Virus record (IMG/VR): IMGVR_UViG_3300002180_000035
Location: 59 to 35,775 of that record
Length of the DNA stretch: 35,717 nt
Source: a virus
Strand: one strand, 5' to 3'
This document shows positions 1,250 through 35,698 of the stretch, in pieces (the first letter of the stretch is position 1; each line of letters opens with the position of its first letter). Below the pieces are notes generated by a model. The model was not told the origin of the DNA. It saw only the letters and a list, made by a program, of their open reading frames with translations, and did no database searches. The position numbers and the translations under genes were made by a program.

Positions 1250-3339
1250 ATTTTGAAAAAGATGACATATTAGTATTAAATGACGTTGTTTGGCTACATC
1301 AAAGGCTTATAGATAATTTATTTCAAATTTCAGATGCTTATCATAGGAAAGTTAGATCTAAATATAAATTAACCGTACAACCATGTTACAGGCATCATAA
1401 TATTTTACCCGATACTGGTAAAGGTTGGCGCTGGGCAAAAATAAAGCACAATTTCTATTACTCTTTAAACAATATACCTAATAGAAAACCCACATTTTAT
1501 AGAGAATCATTAGGTGATAGAGAGCAATTAGTAAATTCTTATAATGAGGCTATTGAAAACAGAACGACTTCCTTGTTGGAACCTCATTTTTTACATTATA
1601 AACGAGAAATTTACAAGGTTTATTTAAGAAGTTATTTAGATTGTTCAAAAATTCAACAACAAAATTTATGTATTGCAGCTGCTTTGCTAGAAAGTTGCAT
1701 ACAATGGATTGAGGATCAAAATATAGATCTAACCAAAAATACCATTTTTAAAGAATACAGTGAACTGTTAGTTAAATATGACATTCGCTATCTACCACAC
1801 AATTACAGGAAATTTAAAGAAAAAGTAATGGAAGTTATGGGAGAAGGAACTCCTATTGTTGAAGTTATTACACTTCCAAGAAGCGGTAACAATAATGCAT
1901 TGACTTTTATTGATGAAGAAGTAAAAAGTTGGGCAATACAATTACGTTCAATGGGACAAAATTATTCTAATGATGCCATTATTAGAAGAGTTAGCCATTT
2001 ATGCAGATTAACAAGTAAGCCTATGCCTAGCCGTAGATGGTTTGGACAAAATATTTTTGAAAAGCATTATACAAAATTTATAACATCAGTTGCTAGATTT
2101 GGAAGTGGTGAACGTGGATCACAACTATTTGAAGGTTATATACCTATGAAAAACGCATTATTTGCTGGTGATTGTTGGCATGTTGATGCTACTCGTATGA
2201 ATTTAGTAGCTCATAAAACAGAAGCTGGAGAAAAAAAGCACTTATTTATTATTGCAGTGCGTGATGTACATAGTGGTGATGTTTTAGGCTATAATTTTGA
2301 CTATAAAGAAGATAGATGGAGTGTTATTTCAGCTGTTAAAATGGCAGTAATTGAGAGTGGTTATTTACCGTATCAAATTGTGTTTGATAGATTCCCTGGT
2401 CACAATACTGAAGAGGTAAAAAGATTGTTTGCTCAATTGGAGCAAATGGGTGTAAAAGTTACTATTAGCCATAACCCACAATCTAAAGCAAAACTAGAAC
2501 GATGGTTTGGAACGTTGCAAAGTGTGTTTATGGACTCATCAGAATATTATTATGGTGAAGGAGTAAAAAGTAAACGTTTGAATGCTCATAGATCTCCTGA
2601 ATATTTAAAAGAAGTTAGAAAACAAGCCAATAAAGATAAGTTTGATTTATATGATGCTTGGCGTGAAAGCCAGTTTATTGTTGAAGCTTATAGAGAGACT
2701 GCATTTTCATATTACTCGAGAAAATATAAGTCTATAAACCAATCACCAAAAATATTACATGCTGAAAGTGAAAAACCGCATGTAAAATTCCTTGAAAACT
2801 GGCAAATATCTATGCTTTTTGGCTTGAAAAAGAAGAAAAAGATGTCAAATTTAGGGCTAATTACTACCGATATTCAAGGCGCAACACATCACTTTAAAAT
2901 TGAAGATTACAACATTATCAGTAAAGAACCTGAAGTGATATTGAGTTATGATCTAAACGACCTTTCAAAAGTATTTATTTTCAAGAAAAGACATCATTTT
3001 TTAGTGTATTTGTGTGAAGCGTATTCATTTGAAGAAATACAAACGTACAGTCCACAAGCTGAATTTAACAGAATAGCCATTGAAAAAGCACGTATAAAAG
3101 AGATAAATTATCAGCGATCTTTAGAATTAGCCAAACATACTCCAGTATATGATGAAGTTGCTCATTTAATGGGAAAATTTACTACAAAAGATGAAGCTGA
3201 AAATGCTGATACTATAAGATTATTGAATGAAGCAACAGCAGAACCTGTACACATTATAAAAAAAGCCGTAGGAAGTGATATAAACACTTCTAACGACTCT
3301 GATATTGATATAGATGAATTAACCACAAAACAAATATAA
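1246..3339 (+). CDS. MuA-like DDE transposase
   Basis: A 697-residue transposase that would bind the prophage ends, nick them and join them to target DNA in replicative transposition. The N-terminal third is a basic DNA-binding region. The integrase-type catalytic core carries the first acidic residue in CWHVDAT (Asp314; Asp309 also lies nearby), the second in IVFDRFPGHN (Asp381) and the glutamate in SKAKLERWFG (Glu418). The 36-residue gap between the last two is close to the D-35-E spacing. The region after residue 500 fits the Mu-type beta-barrel, and the tail is acidic (SDIDIDEL), where MuA carries its MuB/ClpX-interaction tail. Length is close to MuA (663). The MuB-like gene follows after 4 nt. 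Confidence 0.95.
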   Translation: MNFEKDDILVLNDVVWLHQRLIDNLFQISDAYHRKVRSKYKLTVQPCYRHHNILPDTGKGWRWAKIKHNFYYSLNNIPNRKPTFYRESLGDREQLVNSYNEAIENRTTSLLEPHFLHYKREIYKVYLRSYLDCSKIQQQNLCIAAALLESCIQWIEDQNIDLTKNTIFKEYSELLVKYDIRYLPHNYRKFKEKVMEVMGEGTPIVEVITLPRSGNNNALTFIDEEVKSWAIQLRSMGQNYSNDAIIRRVSHLCRLTSKPMPSRRWFGQNIFEKHYTKFITSVARFGSGERGSQLFEGYIPMKNALFAGDCWHVDATRMNLVAHKTEAGEKKHLFIIAVRDVHSGDVLGYNFDYKEDRWSVISAVKMAVIESGYLPYQIVFDRFPGHNTEEVKRLFAQLEQMGVKVTISHNPQSKAKLERWFGTLQSVFMDSSEYYYGEGVKSKRLNAHRSPEYLKEVRKQANKDKFDLYDAWRESQFIVEAYRETAFSYYSRKYKSINQSPKILHAESEKPHVKFLENWQISMLFGLKKKKKMSNLGLITTDIQGATHHFKIEDYNIISKEPEVILSYDLNDLSKVFIFKKRHHFLVYLCEAYSFEEIQTYSPQAEFNRIAIEKARIKEINYQRSLELAKHTPVYDEVAHLMGKFTTKDEAENADTIRLLNEATAEPVHIIKKAVGSDINTSNDSDIDIDELTTKQI

Positions 3340-3343
3340 CAAC

Positions 3344-4285
3344 ATGACAAATCTACAAAAAAAAGAAATTGTAATTACTATTGATAACGCAATTATCAAT
3401 TTAGGAAGTGCCAACAAAGTAGCCAATAAGTGCAATGTATCACCTGCAACCATTAGCCAAATGAAAAGTGAAAACTGGGATTTGATTAGAGAGGATTTAT
3501 GGCTAAAAGTTGCACATGCATTACATCATAATTTTTCGGAATGGCAAATTGCACCAACTACTAACTACAAAATGATGCAAAGTGCCATTAATAAGGCAAA
3601 AGAGCAACGGTTGTTTATACCAATTGCATACTATGCTGGTGCTGGAAAAACAGAAGGTATAAAAGGTTTTATAGGATCAGCTCCACAACCATATAATTAC
3701 TTTTTAAAATGTCGTCAATGGGCTGCTAGGGAATTTATTGAACATTTAATAGTGAGTCTTGGAATGTCAATTCCTAAAGGCTATAACTCTGTTGATAGTT
3801 TAGGGCAAATAGTCATCAACTTTTTTGTAGATCGTAAAATGCACGCTCCAACTTTAATATTAGATCAAGTAAATTCATTAAAAGCAAGTGCTAAAAAATT
3901 CCAAATTCATTTATACAATGAAATGGAGGATAATATGTCATTGATTGCTGTTGGAACTGAAGCTTTTGAAATGGATATGAAACGAGGTGTGCGCTACAAT
4001 AAAGATGGTTTTGATGAAATGGATAGCCGTTACGCTAGAAACTACATTAAACTTATTGGAAACACATTAAATGATACTCGTATGATTTGTTCAGCCAATG
4101 GTATTACAGATAAAAAGCAACAAAAAGCCATTTTTGAGGAGTGTAAACCAACCTATAAAATGGTTGAAATTAACAAGGAAAAAACTCAAATTTTAGTTGT
4201 TGAAGATACTCGTAGAATTAAACGAATTGTGATCAGGGAACGCTCTATTGTTCCTACAGTAAGAAAGGAGGTTTTAAGTGCTTAA
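3344..4285 (+). CDS. MuB-like target-capture ATPase
   Basis: A 313-residue AAA-type ATPase that would form filaments on target DNA and deliver it to the transposase. The N-terminal helix-turn-helix covers about residues 15-45 (NKVANKCNVSPATISQMK), as in MuB. Walker A is AGAGKT at 98-103. The Walker B strand is TLILDQV, with Asp174 followed by Gln175 where an acidic residue is usual. A sensor-like strand SLIAVGTEAFE follows near 200-210. The gene directly follows the transposase. Its 3' end contains the Shine-Dalgarno-like AAAGGAGG that may serve the next small gene. Confidence 0.9.
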   Translation: MTNLQKKEIVITIDNAIINLGSANKVANKCNVSPATISQMKSENWDLIREDLWLKVAHALHHNFSEWQIAPTTNYKMMQSAINKAKEQRLFIPIAYYAGAGKTEGIKGFIGSAPQPYNYFLKCRQWAAREFIEHLIVSLGMSIPKGYNSVDSLGQIVINFFVDRKMHAPTLILDQVNSLKASAKKFQIHLYNEMEDNMSLIAVGTEAFEMDMKRGVRYNKDGFDEMDSRYARNYIKLIGNTLNDTRMICSANGITDKKQQKAIFEECKPTYKMVEINKEKTQILVVEDTRRIKRIVIRERSIVPTVRKEVLSA

Positions 4286-9377: not shown

Positions 9378-9602
9378 ATGGATTCAGGAATAATAATAAA
9401 AAGAGCCGAAACAAAGCTACCAAATGTTGAAAATTATGATAAAGACATTGTTTTTATACCTATTTTAAAAGAATTAGATGTTACAGTTTCTACGGATATT
9501 TCATTTTCACCTAAAGACAGCGGTACGTATATAGTTACTTACCGTAAAAGAATTGACCACTTAAATAACCCTTTTTGGGAGTTTGTTTCATTAGATAAAT
9601 AG
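9378..9602 (+). CDS. Unknown accessory protein, 74 aa
   Basis: A 74-residue protein with beta-strand character (DIVFIPILKELDVTVSTDIS; GTYIVTYRKR). No family is recognised. It is flanked closely by the SEC-C gene and the next small gene in one transcription unit. Confidence 0.5.
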   Translation: MDSGIIIKRAETKLPNVENYDKDIVFIPILKELDVTVSTDISFSPKDSGTYIVTYRKRIDHLNNPFWEFVSLDK

Positions 9603-9615
9603 AAAAATTGTTATT

Positions 9616-9852
9616 ATGGGAACTACAACTAGTTTTGAAAAAATAAAAAAAAGTACAGCTTATACTGATGCAATTAAAGCAGGCTATCAAATTTTCTTAG
9701 CTGCTGATTGCCAGTATGTGTATTTATCAGCAAAAAAAGGAGGATATACAACTCCAATATGCGAAATAAGCCAAGTTTTCGGTAGTAACGTTATCGAAAC
9801 ATTTTTGAATAGACAATTAATAGAGTTAAAAAATAGATTAAATAATGGATAA
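9616..9852 (+). CDS. Unknown accessory protein, 78 aa
   Basis: A 78-residue protein: helical start, then a strand pair (YQIFLAADCQYVYLSAKKGG) and a C-terminal helix. It overlaps the next gene by 8 nt. No domain is recognised. Confidence 0.5.
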   Translation: MGTTTSFEKIKKSTAYTDAIKAGYQIFLAADCQYVYLSAKKGGYTTPICEISQVFGSNVIETFLNRQLIELKNRLNNG

Positions 9853-11992: not shown

Positions 11993-14032
11993 TTAGCTTA
12001 ATTCTACACTTCTAATTACACGTAACATTGCTTCTTGAAACCACTCTTCAAGTTCTTCAGCAGATTTATGTGCCAATGTGGTATTTTGTGTATTTATACC
12101 ACCTTCATTCAATACTATTTTTTCAATAGTAATACTTTTTGGTGATGTTGCTGCTGTACTTACATTTTTAATTTCATCTCCAGTAGTTGGAGTAGTTCCT
12201 GCTGGTGTAATAGGATTTCCATCTTCATCTAATAAACTTTTTTCATTCTTCCCTTTTTTAGTTTTAAGTGCAGCACTATTACTCATTTCTTTATCGTATG
12301 CACCTTTAAATGCTTTACCATACTGTTTACCATTCTTAATGATATTAGTTACTGGTATCACATCTATTGCACCTCCTACACCTTTTTTAAAAGCCTTTTT
12401 TAAATCACTAGCACCTTCTTTAACTGCATCGAAATCAAAATCCCACAATCCCTTAATAATTTTCTTTAAAGCACTAAAACCATCACCTATTGATGAAATA
12501 ACAGTTTTTGCACCTTTCCACATATTACTAAAGAAACTTTTAATTGATGCTCCAAAACCGTCAATTACAGCTCTAAATTTATCCCAACGTTTATATAGTA
12601 ATACCACAGCAGATATAGCTAACAAAATCCAACCCACAATTGGAATACTGAAAATTGCTGCTTTTATACCATGCAATGCTAATGTGACTAAGCCAAGAGC
12701 TCCACTTAAACCTCCTGAAGCAATAGCAGATGCCCACGCCATTGATTGAAAAAATAGCAAGCGTGCGCCAAGCACTCCAAAGGCAATAGCAATAGATTCT
12801 ACAATATCTTCTAGTAAGTCAAATTTATCGTACACCCATTTTAACACGTCGTTTACTTTTTGTAAAAAGCGTACCACTAATGGTAGTATTTTTTCTCCTA
12901 GTTTAGCCATAATAGTATTGAACCTTGCTTTTACAATTTGACCTAAAACAGTTGCATCACCTTGCGCATTTTTTAACGCTTTATCCAAATCAAATTTTGA
13001 AGAGTCAAACGCTTCAAATGTTGAGAATAAATCTCCAGCACCATTTTTTAATTTTGTTAATAATGCACGCAATCCTTCAGGTCCACCAATTTTATTTATT
13101 AATTCATCAATTTGTTTTGGAGACATTTTCTTAAACTTACTATCTACTTGGCGTAAAATACCGTCTAAGTCCTTTAAATTTCCCTTAGCATCGTACAATT
13201 CAACTCCAATAGATTTTAAACCTTTAACGGTTGCATCTTGTGTTAAACCTTGAAAAGCCGTCTTAGTTAAAGTGGCAGCGGTTCTACTGTCCTTGGCAAT
13301 GGATGTAAAAGCTGCAAATAGTTTGTTTGCCGAATCTACTTTTTGCCCAGCTCCAGCAGCTGCACCTGCATATTCTGTTTGTACTTGAGCCAATTCTCTA
13401 AATGTTGTAATACCAACCTGCACCGTTTTAGCATTGGATGCTAGTAACATATCAGTATCGTTTGCATTTAAACCAAATGCTTTAATAGCTTTGGAAGTTG
13501 CATTTATAGAGTCATTGAGTTCTGCACCAGTTGCTGTACTAAATTTGGCTACATTTTTAAACACCTTTTCAGCATCTTTACCATAAAAACCTAAAGCAGA
13601 TTGAATATCATAATATGCCTTTGTGGTATCTACAAGCCCTTTCCCAGTTTCAAATGCAGAATCCATGATTAACCCTTTATAGGTTTTTAGATCCTTATTT
13701 TGTTTGTCAAGATTTAATTGCTCTATCTGAAGAAACTCGTAATTGAATTTTTTAGCTTCTACAGTTGCTTTGCCTAACAGCGTGACGACTGACAGCAAGC
13801 CAACCGTCATCAATACATACGGATTACCCAATAAATCCATTGCACGCCCAAATAAAGGAACTTCACTTCGCATTGCACTAAAAGCATTTACAGTTGATAA
13901 TTTCAACTGATTTAGCTTTCCTTTCATACGATCGGTTGTTTTACTCAACTTCCGTTGTGTTTGTACTAATTTATTGTTAAAGAGCTTGTTTTTAAGCTCT
14001 AGCAATAATTCTAATTTTGCTTTTGCACTCAT
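11993..14032 (-). CDS. Tail tape measure protein (TP901-like)
   Basis: A 679-residue tape measure protein that sets tail length and is ejected with DNA. The N-terminal coiled coil (about 5-60) is followed by a hydrophobic helix near 68-87. The TP901-type core is clear (SALGFYGKDAEKVFKNVAKF; TTFRELAQVQTEYAGAAAGA). A long hydrophobic segment spans about 415-485, and the C-terminus is polar. It is short for a contractile phage, predicting a tail of roughly 100 nm. In most phages this gene directly follows the tail chaperones; here those are at 24176-24681 on the other strand. Confidence 0.9.
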   Translation of the reverse strand: MSAKAKLELLLELKNKLFNNKLVQTQRKLSKTTDRMKGKLNQLKLSTVNAFSAMRSEVPLFGRAMDLLGNPYVLMTVGLLSVVTLLGKATVEAKKFNYEFLQIEQLNLDKQNKDLKTYKGLIMDSAFETGKGLVDTTKAYYDIQSALGFYGKDAEKVFKNVAKFSTATGAELNDSINATSKAIKAFGLNANDTDMLLASNAKTVQVGITTFRELAQVQTEYAGAAAGAGQKVDSANKLFAAFTSIAKDSRTAATLTKTAFQGLTQDATVKGLKSIGVELYDAKGNLKDLDGILRQVDSKFKKMSPKQIDELINKIGGPEGLRALLTKLKNGAGDLFSTFEAFDSSKFDLDKALKNAQGDATVLGQIVKARFNTIMAKLGEKILPLVVRFLQKVNDVLKWVYDKFDLLEDIVESIAIAFGVLGARLLFFQSMAWASAIASGGLSGALGLVTLALHGIKAAIFSIPIVGWILLAISAVVLLYKRWDKFRAVIDGFGASIKSFFSNMWKGAKTVISSIGDGFSALKKIIKGLWDFDFDAVKEGASDLKKAFKKGVGGAIDVIPVTNIIKNGKQYGKAFKGAYDKEMSNSAALKTKKGKNEKSLLDEDGNPITPAGTTPTTGDEIKNVSTAATSPKSITIEKIVLNEGGINTQNTTLAHKSAEELEEWFQEAMLRVIRSVELS

Positions 14033-14046
14033 TTTTTATATCTTTG
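14016..14046 (+). promoter_or_regulatory. Bacteroidota promoter for antisense small RNA
   Basis: TTTG at 14016-14019, a 19-nt spacer, then TATCTTTG at 14039-14046: a full match to the TTTG-N19-TAnnTTTG consensus. It fires on the plus strand from within the start of the minus-strand tape measure gene, so it does not serve any annotated protein gene. Predicted start is at about 14051-14053, the first bases of the structured RNA. Confidence 0.65.
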
Positions 14047-14050
14047 CATT

Positions 14051-14144
14051 AGAAGTTTATGAAGCTTCAATTAAAAAATGCGATTAGCATTTATAGAGTC
14101 GGCTCTTTTTAAGAGTTTATACGGACTAAGTTTCATAAACTTTT
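14051..14144 (+). ncRNA. End-closed structured small RNA, copy 1
   Basis: A 94-nt element in the 114-nt gap between portal and tape measure genes. Its two ends pair in a 17-bp stem (14051-14067 with 14128-14144, two G-U pairs, core AAGTTTATGAA/TTCATAAACTT). Inside are hairpin AAATGC-gatta-GCATTT (14076-14092) and hairpin CTCTT-ttt-AAGAG (14103-14115) within an AGTC/GACT helix, giving a three-way junction. A U-rich tract (TTTTACTTATTTTATTTT) follows, and a consensus promoter ends 4 nt before it. The plus orientation is therefore favoured. A terminator read on the minus strand (AAATGC hairpin plus T6) is an alternative or additional role. Confidence 0.6.
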
Positions 14145-14146
14145 AC

Positions 14147-16681
14147 TTATTTTATTTTCAATCCTTTTCTAATTACTTCTTCTTTAGCTTTCATTTTATA
14201 CCACGTTGTTATTTCATTATTGGTACTTCCTAAAATTGTTTCAACTACCAATACATCATTTGCGAAAAACTTTAAATAACGCATTTGGTATTTTTTGTCA
14301 GATACGGCATTTAACCAAACTTCATCAGCATTATTTAAAGCATTTTTTACATGTGGAAAAAGTTGGTGTCTGTCCTCTCCAATTTTTAGGTATTTTCCTG
14401 AAGTATGCGATTTATACACATCATTTTTTAGTATTATTTTACGTTGTAAGTGGTCGCTAAAGCCCATAAACGCTTGTTTTCCACGTTTACCATCAATCCT
14501 AAACAATTCATCTTTATTCCCAGGAATAATTGTAGTGTCTAATTTTAGTTTTTTTAAGCCTTTTTGAAGTACTTTCAAACTTGATAATCCACTATATGAA
14601 GTGTAATTGATATCGTTTATTTTATTTAGTATTTCGCCATCATCAGTATAAAATTGACTTTTTGTAAATACTTGTTTAGCATCAGCTCTGTTAAAACTAA
14701 AGTCAGAATCTTTAAAACTATCACCCATTAATGACATTGCAGCTTTGCCAGTTACAACCTTACTTTTATCACCTACATATTGAATCATTTCGCAACGGCA
14801 ATTGTAACCATTTGGCGGATACAAGCGCATTGCTTCAGGATCATTTAAGTTAAAAACTTTACCATCTAGTAATTGATGCTCTTCACGAACATGATCATCG
14901 CCTACAGTTTGATATTGTACATAAGGCGTTACACTATCAGCTTCAGATTTTTGGCGTATGTATGCTGCTGAATTTTGAGCAGTTGCAATAGTAAAGTTAT
15001 ACTCAGTCTCTAGCCAAGTTTTATTATAGTTACTAGTAACTTTATCAACTTCATTTTTAAAATCGTTAAAAGATCTGATCTGATTTTTATCACGGTTGAT
15101 CATTAAATCTGTCATTGCTGCTAAACGAGCTTCGGTTTTTGAAGCTGCAAATTCAACAATATTTAATTCCATTGTTTGCAACATTAAATGATCAGGTGCA
15201 TCCCAAGCAGCTTCAGCTCTTCCAGTCCATCCATTTTGAAAGCCTTTGATGTATAATAAACTTTCATCGGCAATAATTTGAGCCTGAGAACCTATTGTAT
15301 TTTTATTTTCCCATATATCACGTGCTAATTGTTCTTGAAGTATTTTTATTTTATCACGAACACTTGAAGCTACAGCTGTAAAATTTCCACAACACAAAGC
15401 TTCAGGATAATTTGGAATTCGCACACCTAAAGCTGTTACATTAGTTAAGTTTGTTGGTTGGGTTTGGACTTTTTTTTTACCAGCAATAGGAATGTGAAAC
15501 GTTGAAGATAACCACTCTATATCATCAATTTCATAATCTTTTAAAACACCTTGTGTAATTTTCCAAAATTTATCAAGTGCTAAATTGTGTGATTTATTAA
15601 ACGTAAATTTATCATTGTCTTTTATAAATGTATAGCCTTGATTTTTTAATAAAGGCATCAATACGTCGTTCACTAAAAAAGTTAATGAACGCTTTTCAGC
15701 AATGGCAATTTTATCATCTAAATTACGCTCGTGTACTTCACTTTGACTTCTACTAGCTCCATCGTTGGTTAACATTGTTCCACCTACAATAGCGACACTA
15801 ATTTCTTCACGATTAAAAGCAATAAAATTGCTGTATGTTTGGTAGGCATCGGTTCTGCTGGCTTCTTTAATATCAACCGTAGTACCTAAAGGGAATACTC
15901 CAGTTGAAGCTTCACCAATTTGCTGCAACATATATTCAATTTTATCTAATTGTTTGCTATCAGTTGTATTGGTTGTTGCTGTTACCATAGGCATTCCAAA
16001 TTTTTCGCAAAACTCAGCCCAAGATTGCGCTACATTTCGTTTCCAAATTAAGTTAGGTACAATATCATTTAAGATACCAAGATTGTCAGCACTTCCAATT
16101 TCAATTAACCAGTCTTCAAAAAATGGATCAGTATAATCAACCGTATCTTGCTTTCCCAAATCAGGGATCACTAATTTATCTTGAGGCACAACATTTCTAC
16201 GAGGTACTAATGCTAATTCAATTTTATCTTTCCAAAATGCTTTAAATTCAATTAATGTGTGACCTCTAAAACTAGCATCTATAGCGTGTGATAAAAAGTC
16301 GTAAAACCATTGTTGGTTAAAAAACTCACTAGCTTCTTCATTAGATTTATTATTGGTTTTATCAATAATACTAAATTCAGTATTTAAAATAGAATAAGTA
16401 CGAAGTCTAATTTGCGCTTTTAAATGTCCATCGGTACTTAAATCATCGATTAAATCTTGAAACATCTGAAAGCGAGGCTTCTCAGGTAGTTGTGTTAACT
16501 GAATAGCAGTACGCCATTTTTCAATATTTTTTCTGCTGGTATCTTTAAAGGCATTTACTATTTTTGCAATAATATCTTTATCAGCCTGAATTAATCGCCC
16601 TCCAGCTCCAGTATCTTTTTGTTTCGCAAAACTCTCAATAAAGCGTTTGTAAGCGTTTGTTTCAAATCCTAAAATCTTCAT
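14147..16681 (-). CDS. Portal (gp29/DUF935) + MuF + C-terminal nuclease-toxin-like fusion
   Basis: An 844-residue three-part protein. Residues about 25-430 are a Mu gp29-type (DUF935) portal (SRSQSEVHERNLDDKIAIAE near 310-330). About 540-640 is a MuF head-morphogenesis domain with DDHVREEHQLLDGKVF and the closing motif PPNGYNCRC (~630). Residues about 700-844 form an extra domain: FSDHLQRKIILKND, then DEVWLNAVSDKKYQMRYLKFF, then TWYKMK. This resembles the phage Barnase-EndoU-ColicinE5/D-RelE-like nuclease modules (PBECR) often fused to MuF. In Mu, portal and MuF are separate genes. The fusion would place the nuclease-like domain at the portal vertex for delivery with DNA. Confidence 0.85.
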   Translation of the reverse strand: MKILGFETNAYKRFIESFAKQKDTGAGGRLIQADKDIIAKIVNAFKDTSRKNIEKWRTAIQLTQLPEKPRFQMFQDLIDDLSTDGHLKAQIRLRTYSILNTEFSIIDKTNNKSNEEASEFFNQQWFYDFLSHAIDASFRGHTLIEFKAFWKDKIELALVPRRNVVPQDKLVIPDLGKQDTVDYTDPFFEDWLIEIGSADNLGILNDIVPNLIWKRNVAQSWAEFCEKFGMPMVTATTNTTDSKQLDKIEYMLQQIGEASTGVFPLGTTVDIKEASRTDAYQTYSNFIAFNREEISVAIVGGTMLTNDGASRSQSEVHERNLDDKIAIAEKRSLTFLVNDVLMPLLKNQGYTFIKDNDKFTFNKSHNLALDKFWKITQGVLKDYEIDDIEWLSSTFHIPIAGKKKVQTQPTNLTNVTALGVRIPNYPEALCCGNFTAVASSVRDKIKILQEQLARDIWENKNTIGSQAQIIADESLLYIKGFQNGWTGRAEAAWDAPDHLMLQTMELNIVEFAASKTEARLAAMTDLMINRDKNQIRSFNDFKNEVDKVTSNYNKTWLETEYNFTIATAQNSAAYIRQKSEADSVTPYVQYQTVGDDHVREEHQLLDGKVFNLNDPEAMRLYPPNGYNCRCEMIQYVGDKSKVVTGKAAMSLMGDSFKDSDFSFNRADAKQVFTKSQFYTDDGEILNKINDINYTSYSGLSSLKVLQKGLKKLKLDTTIIPGNKDELFRIDGKRGKQAFMGFSDHLQRKIILKNDVYKSHTSGKYLKIGEDRHQLFPHVKNALNNADEVWLNAVSDKKYQMRYLKFFANDVLVVETILGSTNNEITTWYKMKAKEEVIRKGLKIK

Positions 16682-19203: not shown

Positions 19204-19216
19204 TATTAAAATTTTG

Positions 19217-19289
19217 TAGCGAGGGACAGACTCGAACTGCCGACCTTTGGATAATGAGTCCAACGAGATACCAACTTCTCCACCTCACG
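19217..19289 (-). tRNA. tRNA-Met (CAT), initiator-like
   Basis: A 73-nt cloverleaf on the minus strand. The acceptor is CGTGAGG/CCTCGCT with six pairs and an unpaired C1/U72. The D arm is GAGA-AGTTGGTA-TCTC, the anticodon stem TTGGA/TCCAA with loop CTCATTA (anticodon CAT at 19254-19256), the variable loop AGGTC, and the T arm GGCAG-TTCGAGT-CTGTC. The unpaired 1/72 position and overall likeness to bacterial tRNA-fMet point to an initiator, but only two of the three G-C pairs expected at the base of the anticodon stem are present and position 37 is U, which is odd. CCA is not encoded. It lies 8 nt downstream of a terminator. Confidence 0.85.
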
Positions 19290-35550: not shown

Positions 35551-35643
35551 GATTTGCCGATTATACAATCAGTTGTATTCATAAGAGTTATTAATTTTTA
35601 AGTATACAAAATTCTAAAGTTTTAGTATGTGAAGCTAAAATAG

Positions 35644-35679
35644 TTAAAGCTCTTCTATATGCAAATAGAAGAGCTTTAA
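35644..35679 (-). terminator. Hairpin downstream of a flanking minus-strand gene
   Basis: TTAAAGCTCTTCTAT (35644-35658) pairs perfectly with ATAGAAGAGCTTTAA (35665-35679) around ATGCAA. It lies 20 nt beyond the possible stop codon of a host gene on the minus strand and is followed on that strand by CTATTTT. Confidence 0.55.
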
Positions 35680-35698
35680 TTAATATGCAATATTTATA

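Follow-up and report, generated by a model that had tools for sequence, protein, structure and literature searches.

In the Mu-like phage of the IMG/VR virus record IMGVR_UViG_3300002180_000035 (35,775 bases), a predicted small RNA gene lies on the plus strand inside a minus-strand late operon, and its structured RNA probably serves as an antidote, conferring immunity to the nuclease domain that ends the neighbouring MuF head protein. The DNA analysed, called the window below, comprises 35,717 nucleotides (positions 59 to 35,775 of the record), and the element occupies its 114-nt gap between the gene of a portal–MuF–PBECR2 fusion protein and the tape measure gene (14033-14146). Comparison of related loci establishes for this putative antisense RNA gene a conserved fold and a tie to nuclease-type MuF C-termini. 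By the same comparison, the predicted RNA is lost together with the catalytic histidine of the toxin domain and moves with the toxin in a single exchangeable cassette; in the case of non-nuclease toxins, the slot is occupied by protein genes.

Antisense promoter and RNA element in the window

The promoter is of the Bacteroidota type, TTTG-N19-TATCTTTG. Its -33 element TTTG is found at 14016-14019 (+), a position that is merely T-rich across the family, and its -7 box TATCTTTG at 14039-14046 (+), for which the relatives give the family consensus TATATTTG. This promoter had been proposed in an earlier, sequence-only reading of the window and is indeed present, though the pattern by itself is at chance level (2 matches in the window vs. 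2.0 expected from shuffles). A simple sigma-70 scan of the window missed it because the Bacteroidota consensus differs.

Folds and homologues place the predicted small RNA, the candidate immunity RNA, at 14051-14146 (+), with a 5' end at about 14050-14053 and a 3' end at about 14144-14156, both ends being estimates. The end-closed 94-nt element described in the sequence-only reading (14051-14144, plus strand) was recovered with its 17-bp stem and folds at -28.3 kcal/mol (z -4.65, 0/200 shuffles), while the longer segment 14047-14160 reaches a fold z of -5.84; the complementary strand of the element folds clearly worse (-18.3 kcal/mol, z -2.2). The closing stem P1 is formed by a 5' arm at 14051-14067 (+) and a 3' arm at 14128-14144 (+). 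Between the arms lie hairpin P2 (14076-14092, +), which is shorter than its counterpart in the related locus L213, and hairpin P3 (14097-14127, +; AGTCGGCTC...ACGGACT), which is nearly identical there. The branched interior announced by the earlier reading is real, consisting of these two hairpins. Its U-rich tail is also present (14141-14159, +), at and just past the toxin gene stop codon, yet in this genome it is a weak terminator, unlike the textbook form; the relatives L010, L221 and L223 carry U6-U8 tracts.

The gap (14033-14146) contains no plus-strand open reading frame (ORF) of at least 60 aa, in agreement with its earlier description as free of plus-strand genes. MuF toxin genes are as a rule followed by a small ORF for immunity (<150 aa); none was found in the window, where no ORF of at least 60 aa is confined to the gap. 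A conserved small peptide was rejected, since antisense ORFs at nuclease loci have median lengths of 18-24 aa and the 17-codon antisense ORF of the window is without counterpart in L213. Direct repeats are absent within 14050-14146, and none are evident among 122 homologues. The window and 15 related loci gave no Rfam match above the gathering score at these RNAs, and the gap, used as a DNA query against phage records, returned zero matches. The significance of the element comes from its conservation in relatives, in which the gap, the antisense box and a compensated stem recur.

Association of the RNA with nuclease-type MuF C-termini

Relatives were found by alignments, since the tape measure gave no close homologues. 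The syntenic relatives first found (Flavobacterium phage fF4, a Urechidicola contig and ten viral contigs) all have a gap of 75-133 nt with an antisense TANNTTTG. A Portal_Mu search in two draws of Bacteroidota genomes (400 and 396), together with three viral scans, then yielded 227 distinct MuF loci, and the association was tested on 186 MuF loci whose C-terminus is either nuclease-type (PBECR2, CdiA_C or LPD3) or lacking. Of the loci with a PBECR2, CdiA_C or LPD3 C-terminus, 100/121 have an antisense TANNTTTG in the interval from MuF to the following gene; of those without a C-terminal domain, 3/65 do. This contrast holds after clustering at 80% (94/112 vs. 2/37), 60% (64/74 vs. 1/32, p 6e-17) and 50% identity (29/36 vs. 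1/17), and the sense-strand control for the box is near zero. The median distance from MuF to the next gene is 92-122 nt for the nuclease types vs. -1 for short MuF proteins, where an overlap is usual.

The gene that follows MuF varies (tape measure, neck protein and others), while the antisense unit stays by MuF. A tie of the RNA to the tape measure was therefore rejected, and the RNA follows the toxin domain instead. Three loci that lack the box (L108, L113 and L114) still have an antisense closed fold and a U tract behind sigma-70-like promoters. By automatic detection, which is strict, antisense terminators were recognised in only 14-38% of the nuclease loci, vs. 0-2% on the sense strand. 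A DNA-only scan of viral contigs returned 9/9 matches with promoter and pseudoknot that adjoin PBECR2, and 22 others that have neither a promoter box nor a toxin.

In L127 (814-1366), a PBECR2 gene without a recognisable MuF upstream in the stretch read is followed just downstream by an antisense closed-stem RNA behind the sigma-70-like promoter TTGACA...CATAAT. A human-gut phage contig that carries a MuF-LPD3 gene with an antisense RNA also contains an Rfam RT-3 RNA (RF03068; L027, 3913-4060, +).

Conservation of the RNA fold

Compensatory changes in the 17-bp stem, which the sequence-only reading had expected in homologues, are seen between the window and L213: both sequences can form 17/17 pairs of P1, although three pairs differ by double compensatory changes and several others by single-side or G-U exchanges. 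In a PBECR2 subfamily, an unbiased de novo helix scan ranks a pseudoknot first. In 12 sequences, which include L399 and L400, both found by a model without the pseudoknot, this helix is 93% paired and shows 10 double-change cells, with 0/500 shuffles as high, while slid controls fail. In a CdiA_C subfamily, 18 double-change cells support a hairpin of 8 pairs (0/500 shuffles). The antisense strand, i.e., that of the RNA, folds better than its complement in 88/101 loci. The earlier proposal of a structured small RNA gene with its own promoter, antisense inside a late operon, is supported by these comparisons.

In the RNA of L078, the hairpin loop TTCCGTG is complementary to CACGGAA in the next hairpin, as in a kissing interaction or a pseudoknot; the same locus has a second MuF-like ORF at 2808-3405.

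Loss of the RNA with the active site

When all columns of the PBECR2 alignment were scanned, the single conserved His emerged as the best predictor of the RNA (31/34 vs. 3/12, p 3.5e-5). Iyer 2017 describes this His as the BECR active-site residue (PMC5512222). In the window its codon is intact (14405-14407, -; residue 124 of the C-terminal region). After inspection of the exceptions, the His is present in 36/36 loci with the RNA vs. 0/9 without it (Fisher 1e-9, uncorrected for kinship), a comparison that includes calls made by eye (L083, L087, L246 and L249 as having the RNA and L218 as having none, L254 being omitted as unclear). A tree of the PBECR2 loci indicates about six losses of the RNA, every one accompanied by loss of the His and at least five of them forced by supported branches; L212, with both His and RNA, is the sister of L217-L219, which have neither. 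Three CdiA_C loci without RNA, a small sample, have conserved residues lost or altered or are truncated. The PBECR domain of Mu gpF is described as inactive in the same source (PMC5512222), and in phage Mu the genes F and G overlap, leaving no gap and no room for an RNA.

In L218, a TTTTA microsatellite occupies the gap in place of the RNA, and the PBECR2 His is replaced by Phe.

Exchange as a cassette and a proposed immunity slot

The loci L012 and L015 (PBECR2) are close to L013 (CdiA_C) in the portal–MuF part (91% between L015 and L013) and in the tape measure (82-90%). Their toxin domains and RNAs are unrelated to those of L013: homology breaks near the toxin domain and restarts at the first base of the RNA after the promoter box. 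Across 18 locus pairs, several of which span toxin classes, the restart of homology is at most 25 nt from the RNA start site and mostly within 5. The similarity of the RNAs tracks the toxin domain above the MuF domain, with partial r values of 0.54 vs. 0.16 for CdiA_C and 0.27 vs. 0.14 for PBECR2.

In loci whose C-terminus is a Gln-deamidase or metallopeptidase-like domain, ORFs of 69-85 aa begin 4-8 nt behind the antisense box. L179, which has an RNA and CdiA_C, and L188, which has an antisense ORF and an ATLF-like C-terminus, share a common sequence up to the start site. Antisense ORFs of 65-85 aa were observed directly behind TANNTTTG in L156, L183, L188, L191, L280, L284 and L138, with C-termini that are glutamine-deamidase, metallopeptidase-like or unnamed, and these ORFs are likely protein immunity genes in antisense orientation. 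Small immunity ORFs are known beside MuF toxins (PMC5576092, PMC11699363), and a small ORF follows 89% of MuF toxin genes (PMC5576092). For nuclease toxins, the RNA would appear to replace this small immunity ORF.

RNAs without an intact toxin

A covariance model identified two RNAs, L399 and L400, in genomes without Portal_Mu or PBECR2 matches (G181 was covered by the Portal_Mu search only). L399 lies in a chromosomal context beside a PBECR2 remnant with stops, and L400 in a chromosome, flanked by a GH16 gene on one side and an unnamed gene on the other; a decayed MuF-CdiA_C fragment, itself accompanied by an antisense RNA, lies 2.3 kb away from L400. Both retain a promoter-like region, the stems and, via compensatory change, the pseudoknot. 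Such toxin-less copies, of which only these two cases were found, are expected for immunity genes, unlike for cis-antisense control. When the model was run on 399 genomes of the order to which G409 belongs, no further toxin-less RNAs were found.

In L401, a chromosomal toxin-less RNA of the PBECR2 type and a decayed MuF-CdiA_C fragment with antisense RNA (9500-9830 and 12380-12700) have a Cas1-like gene nearby, as judged by eye only.

Proposed function and alternatives

As an immunity factor, the RNA would have a host-type promoter of its own, on the strand opposite to the late operon, so that it could be made in a lysogen while the late operon is silent; transcription in the lysogen is presumed, as is the toxicity of the nuclease domain. 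The RNA would protect the cell from MuF toxin that is produced in lytic growth or delivered by other virions. Neutralisation would proceed by binding and blocking of the nuclease, for which the RNA would act as a decoy substrate much as type III antitoxins do, whereas base pairing to the toxin mRNA would play no part; the occurrence of RNA antidotes for RNases vs. protein antidotes for other enzymes suggests such a decoy mechanism. Among the roles that the sequence-only reading had listed, a decoy for a protein comes nearest to this proposal, but the list overlooked that the gene taken as portal ends in a MuF head domain and a PBECR2 nuclease. The comparisons also lean somewhat towards a more general MuF immunity slot, in which one antisense promoter behind the toxin would serve a cargo that is swapped with the toxin domain: a protein for non-nuclease toxins and a folded RNA for RNase toxins. 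These RNAs would then represent the first RNA immunity factors to be recognised for polymorphic (virion-delivered) toxins, with several unrelated folds, and would also occur toxin-less in bacterial chromosomes.

Several observations weigh against an immunity function. The cassette and cophylogeny signals are partly forced by physical closeness on the DNA, and the complete separation by the active-site His depends in part on calls made by eye. About half of the other C-termini also carry the antisense box, some of them without a clear ORF. RNA shapes vary widely among toxin subtypes, and the pseudoknot with covariation was seen in one PBECR2 subfamily, the RNA of the window not being among the sequences that show it. 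An AlphaFold model of the PBECR2 domain (pLDDT 82) matched no PDB fold. Moreover, the RNA overlaps or abuts the 3' side of the toxin mRNA in every locus and may pair with it.

The last point leads to the main rival, cis-antisense control, in which the RNA would pair with the toxin 3' end and the intergenic late mRNA and thereby lower expression of the toxin or of the downstream gene, mainly in the lysogen; control of the portal/tape-measure transcript, as suggested earlier, is retained in this form. Short phage antisense RNAs such as lambda OOP RNA and P22 sar RNA resemble the element in having their own promoter, in starting before one gene and in ending at the 3' end of the preceding gene. 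They act by mRNA pairing and, unlike the element here, are not known to be tied to a toxin domain or exchanged with protein genes. In every locus the RNA is perfectly complementary to the late-mRNA junction and extends at its 3' end as far as the stop codon of the toxin gene or into the end of its coding part, and loss of the RNA with an inactive nuclease is predicted by this model too. Pairing requires no conserved fold, however, yet stems and pseudoknot are kept by compensatory change; small protein genes occupy the same slot for other toxins, two RNAs have been kept although no intact toxin gene adjoins them, and cis-antisense pairing would offer no protection against toxin that comes in with virions. 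This explanation is judged unlikely.

It is still less probable that the RNA is another kind of nuclease partner, such as a cofactor, a guide, a natural substrate, or an RNA that enters the head together with MuF to keep the domain folded and silent until injection. The association, the cophylogeny and the loss along with the active site would be expected of such a partner as well; moreover, MuF belongs to the head, and packaging of PBECR proteins has been proposed (PMC5512222). Immunity is the better fit for the toxin-less copies and for the replacement by antisense protein genes at the position where immunity genes usually lie (compare PMC5576092, PMC11699363), and no finding points to packaging, which the earlier reading had also offered as a role for the RNA. 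It is very improbable that the structure functions within the late mRNA, i.e., on the minus strand (serving there for processing, attenuation or translation between MuF and the next gene), and that the promoter box is incidental. The gap does lie inside the late operon, and compensatory changes are compatible with pairing on either strand; the fold asymmetry, the antisense position of U tracts and promoter box with low sense controls, and the break of homology at the antisense start site led to rejection of a signal on the mRNA strand. That a promoter-like match and a stable fold met by chance in an AT-rich gap has a negligible probability: taken alone, the promoter pattern is no more frequent in the window than chance predicts, but dozens of divergent loci conserve the element, and the covariation and the association statistics refute this explanation.

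The fusion protein and other features of the window

The minus-strand late genes encode a terminase-like protein, a Gp36-like protein, the portal–MuF–PBECR2 fusion, the tape measure and a tail protein. The fusion gene (14147-16681, -) encodes an 844-aa head protein with a predicted C-terminal RNase toxin, and thus combines portal, MuF and a toxin-type domain in one protein (PF06074, PF04233 and PF18810), the architecture of MuF polymorphic toxins. Its PBECR2 nuclease domain, recognised by Pfam, covers residues 741-830 (14192-14461, -); a PDB fold search and sequence searches with this domain gave nothing reliable. The tape measure gene (11993-14032, -) is a neighbour only, with other genes in its place in other phages. 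Elsewhere in the window, a tRNA-Met (cat) gene lies upstream of the terminase-region genes (19216-19289, -), and a nearly perfect 21-bp inverted repeat with zero spacer is found near the end of the record (35641-35682).

Relation to known systems and implications

The locus shares with the MuF polymorphic toxins (Jamet 2017, PMC5576092; Alexei 2024, PMC11699363) the portal-adjacent MuF head domain, the exchangeable C-terminal toxin, the adjoining immunity gene (putative here) and the cassette-like swaps. Known immunity in that system consists of small proteins, whereas the nuclease types here have an antisense structured RNA gene and no such ORF. The RNA is best read as working like the antitoxins of type III toxin-antitoxin systems (ToxIN, CptIN, TenpIN; PMC5086642) while standing outside that class. 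Both combine a structured RNA with an RNase toxin (a predicted one here) and match toxin and RNA types; a pseudoknot, which type III RNAs have, shows covariation here in one PBECR2 subfamily. In contrast to type III systems, the tandem repeats (about 35 nt) of the antitoxin RNA were not found; the RNA is located downstream and antisense with its own promoter, instead of upstream in the toxin operon with a terminator in between; the toxin domains are Pfam PBECR2, CdiA_C and LPD3, not ToxN, CptN or TenpN; and the toxin forms one domain of a protein of the virion.

Type I toxin-antitoxin systems (PMC4147584) also have an antisense RNA by the toxin gene that reaches its 3' end, and complementarity to the toxin mRNA is given here by position, from the gap up to the stop codon. 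Type I toxins are typically small hydrophobic peptides, unlike the 844-aa head protein with its nuclease domain; the RNA here also keeps a conserved fold and occurs in copies that lack a toxin. With regard to the PBECR nucleases and polyvalent proteins (Iyer 2017, PMC5512222), the C-terminal domain in the window is a PBECR2 domain with the described His; the available part of that source mentions no associated RNA such as the one described here. No prior report of RNA immunity to polymorphic toxins, or of small RNAs by MuF genes, was found in the literature searched, the coverage of which is incomplete.

Immunity to polymorphic toxins has been thought to be protein-borne and has been sought as small ORFs, which are absent for one large set of MuF toxins. 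An RNA in their place would account for the recurrent noncoding gap in Bacteroidota Mu-like phages. If true, this reading would reveal a class of immunity genes that has so far been invisible to annotation, and would extend type III-like RNA control of RNases to toxins that travel with virions. In that case, what is required of an immunity gene could be tested directly on the swaps between RNA antidotes and protein antidotes that share a promoter.
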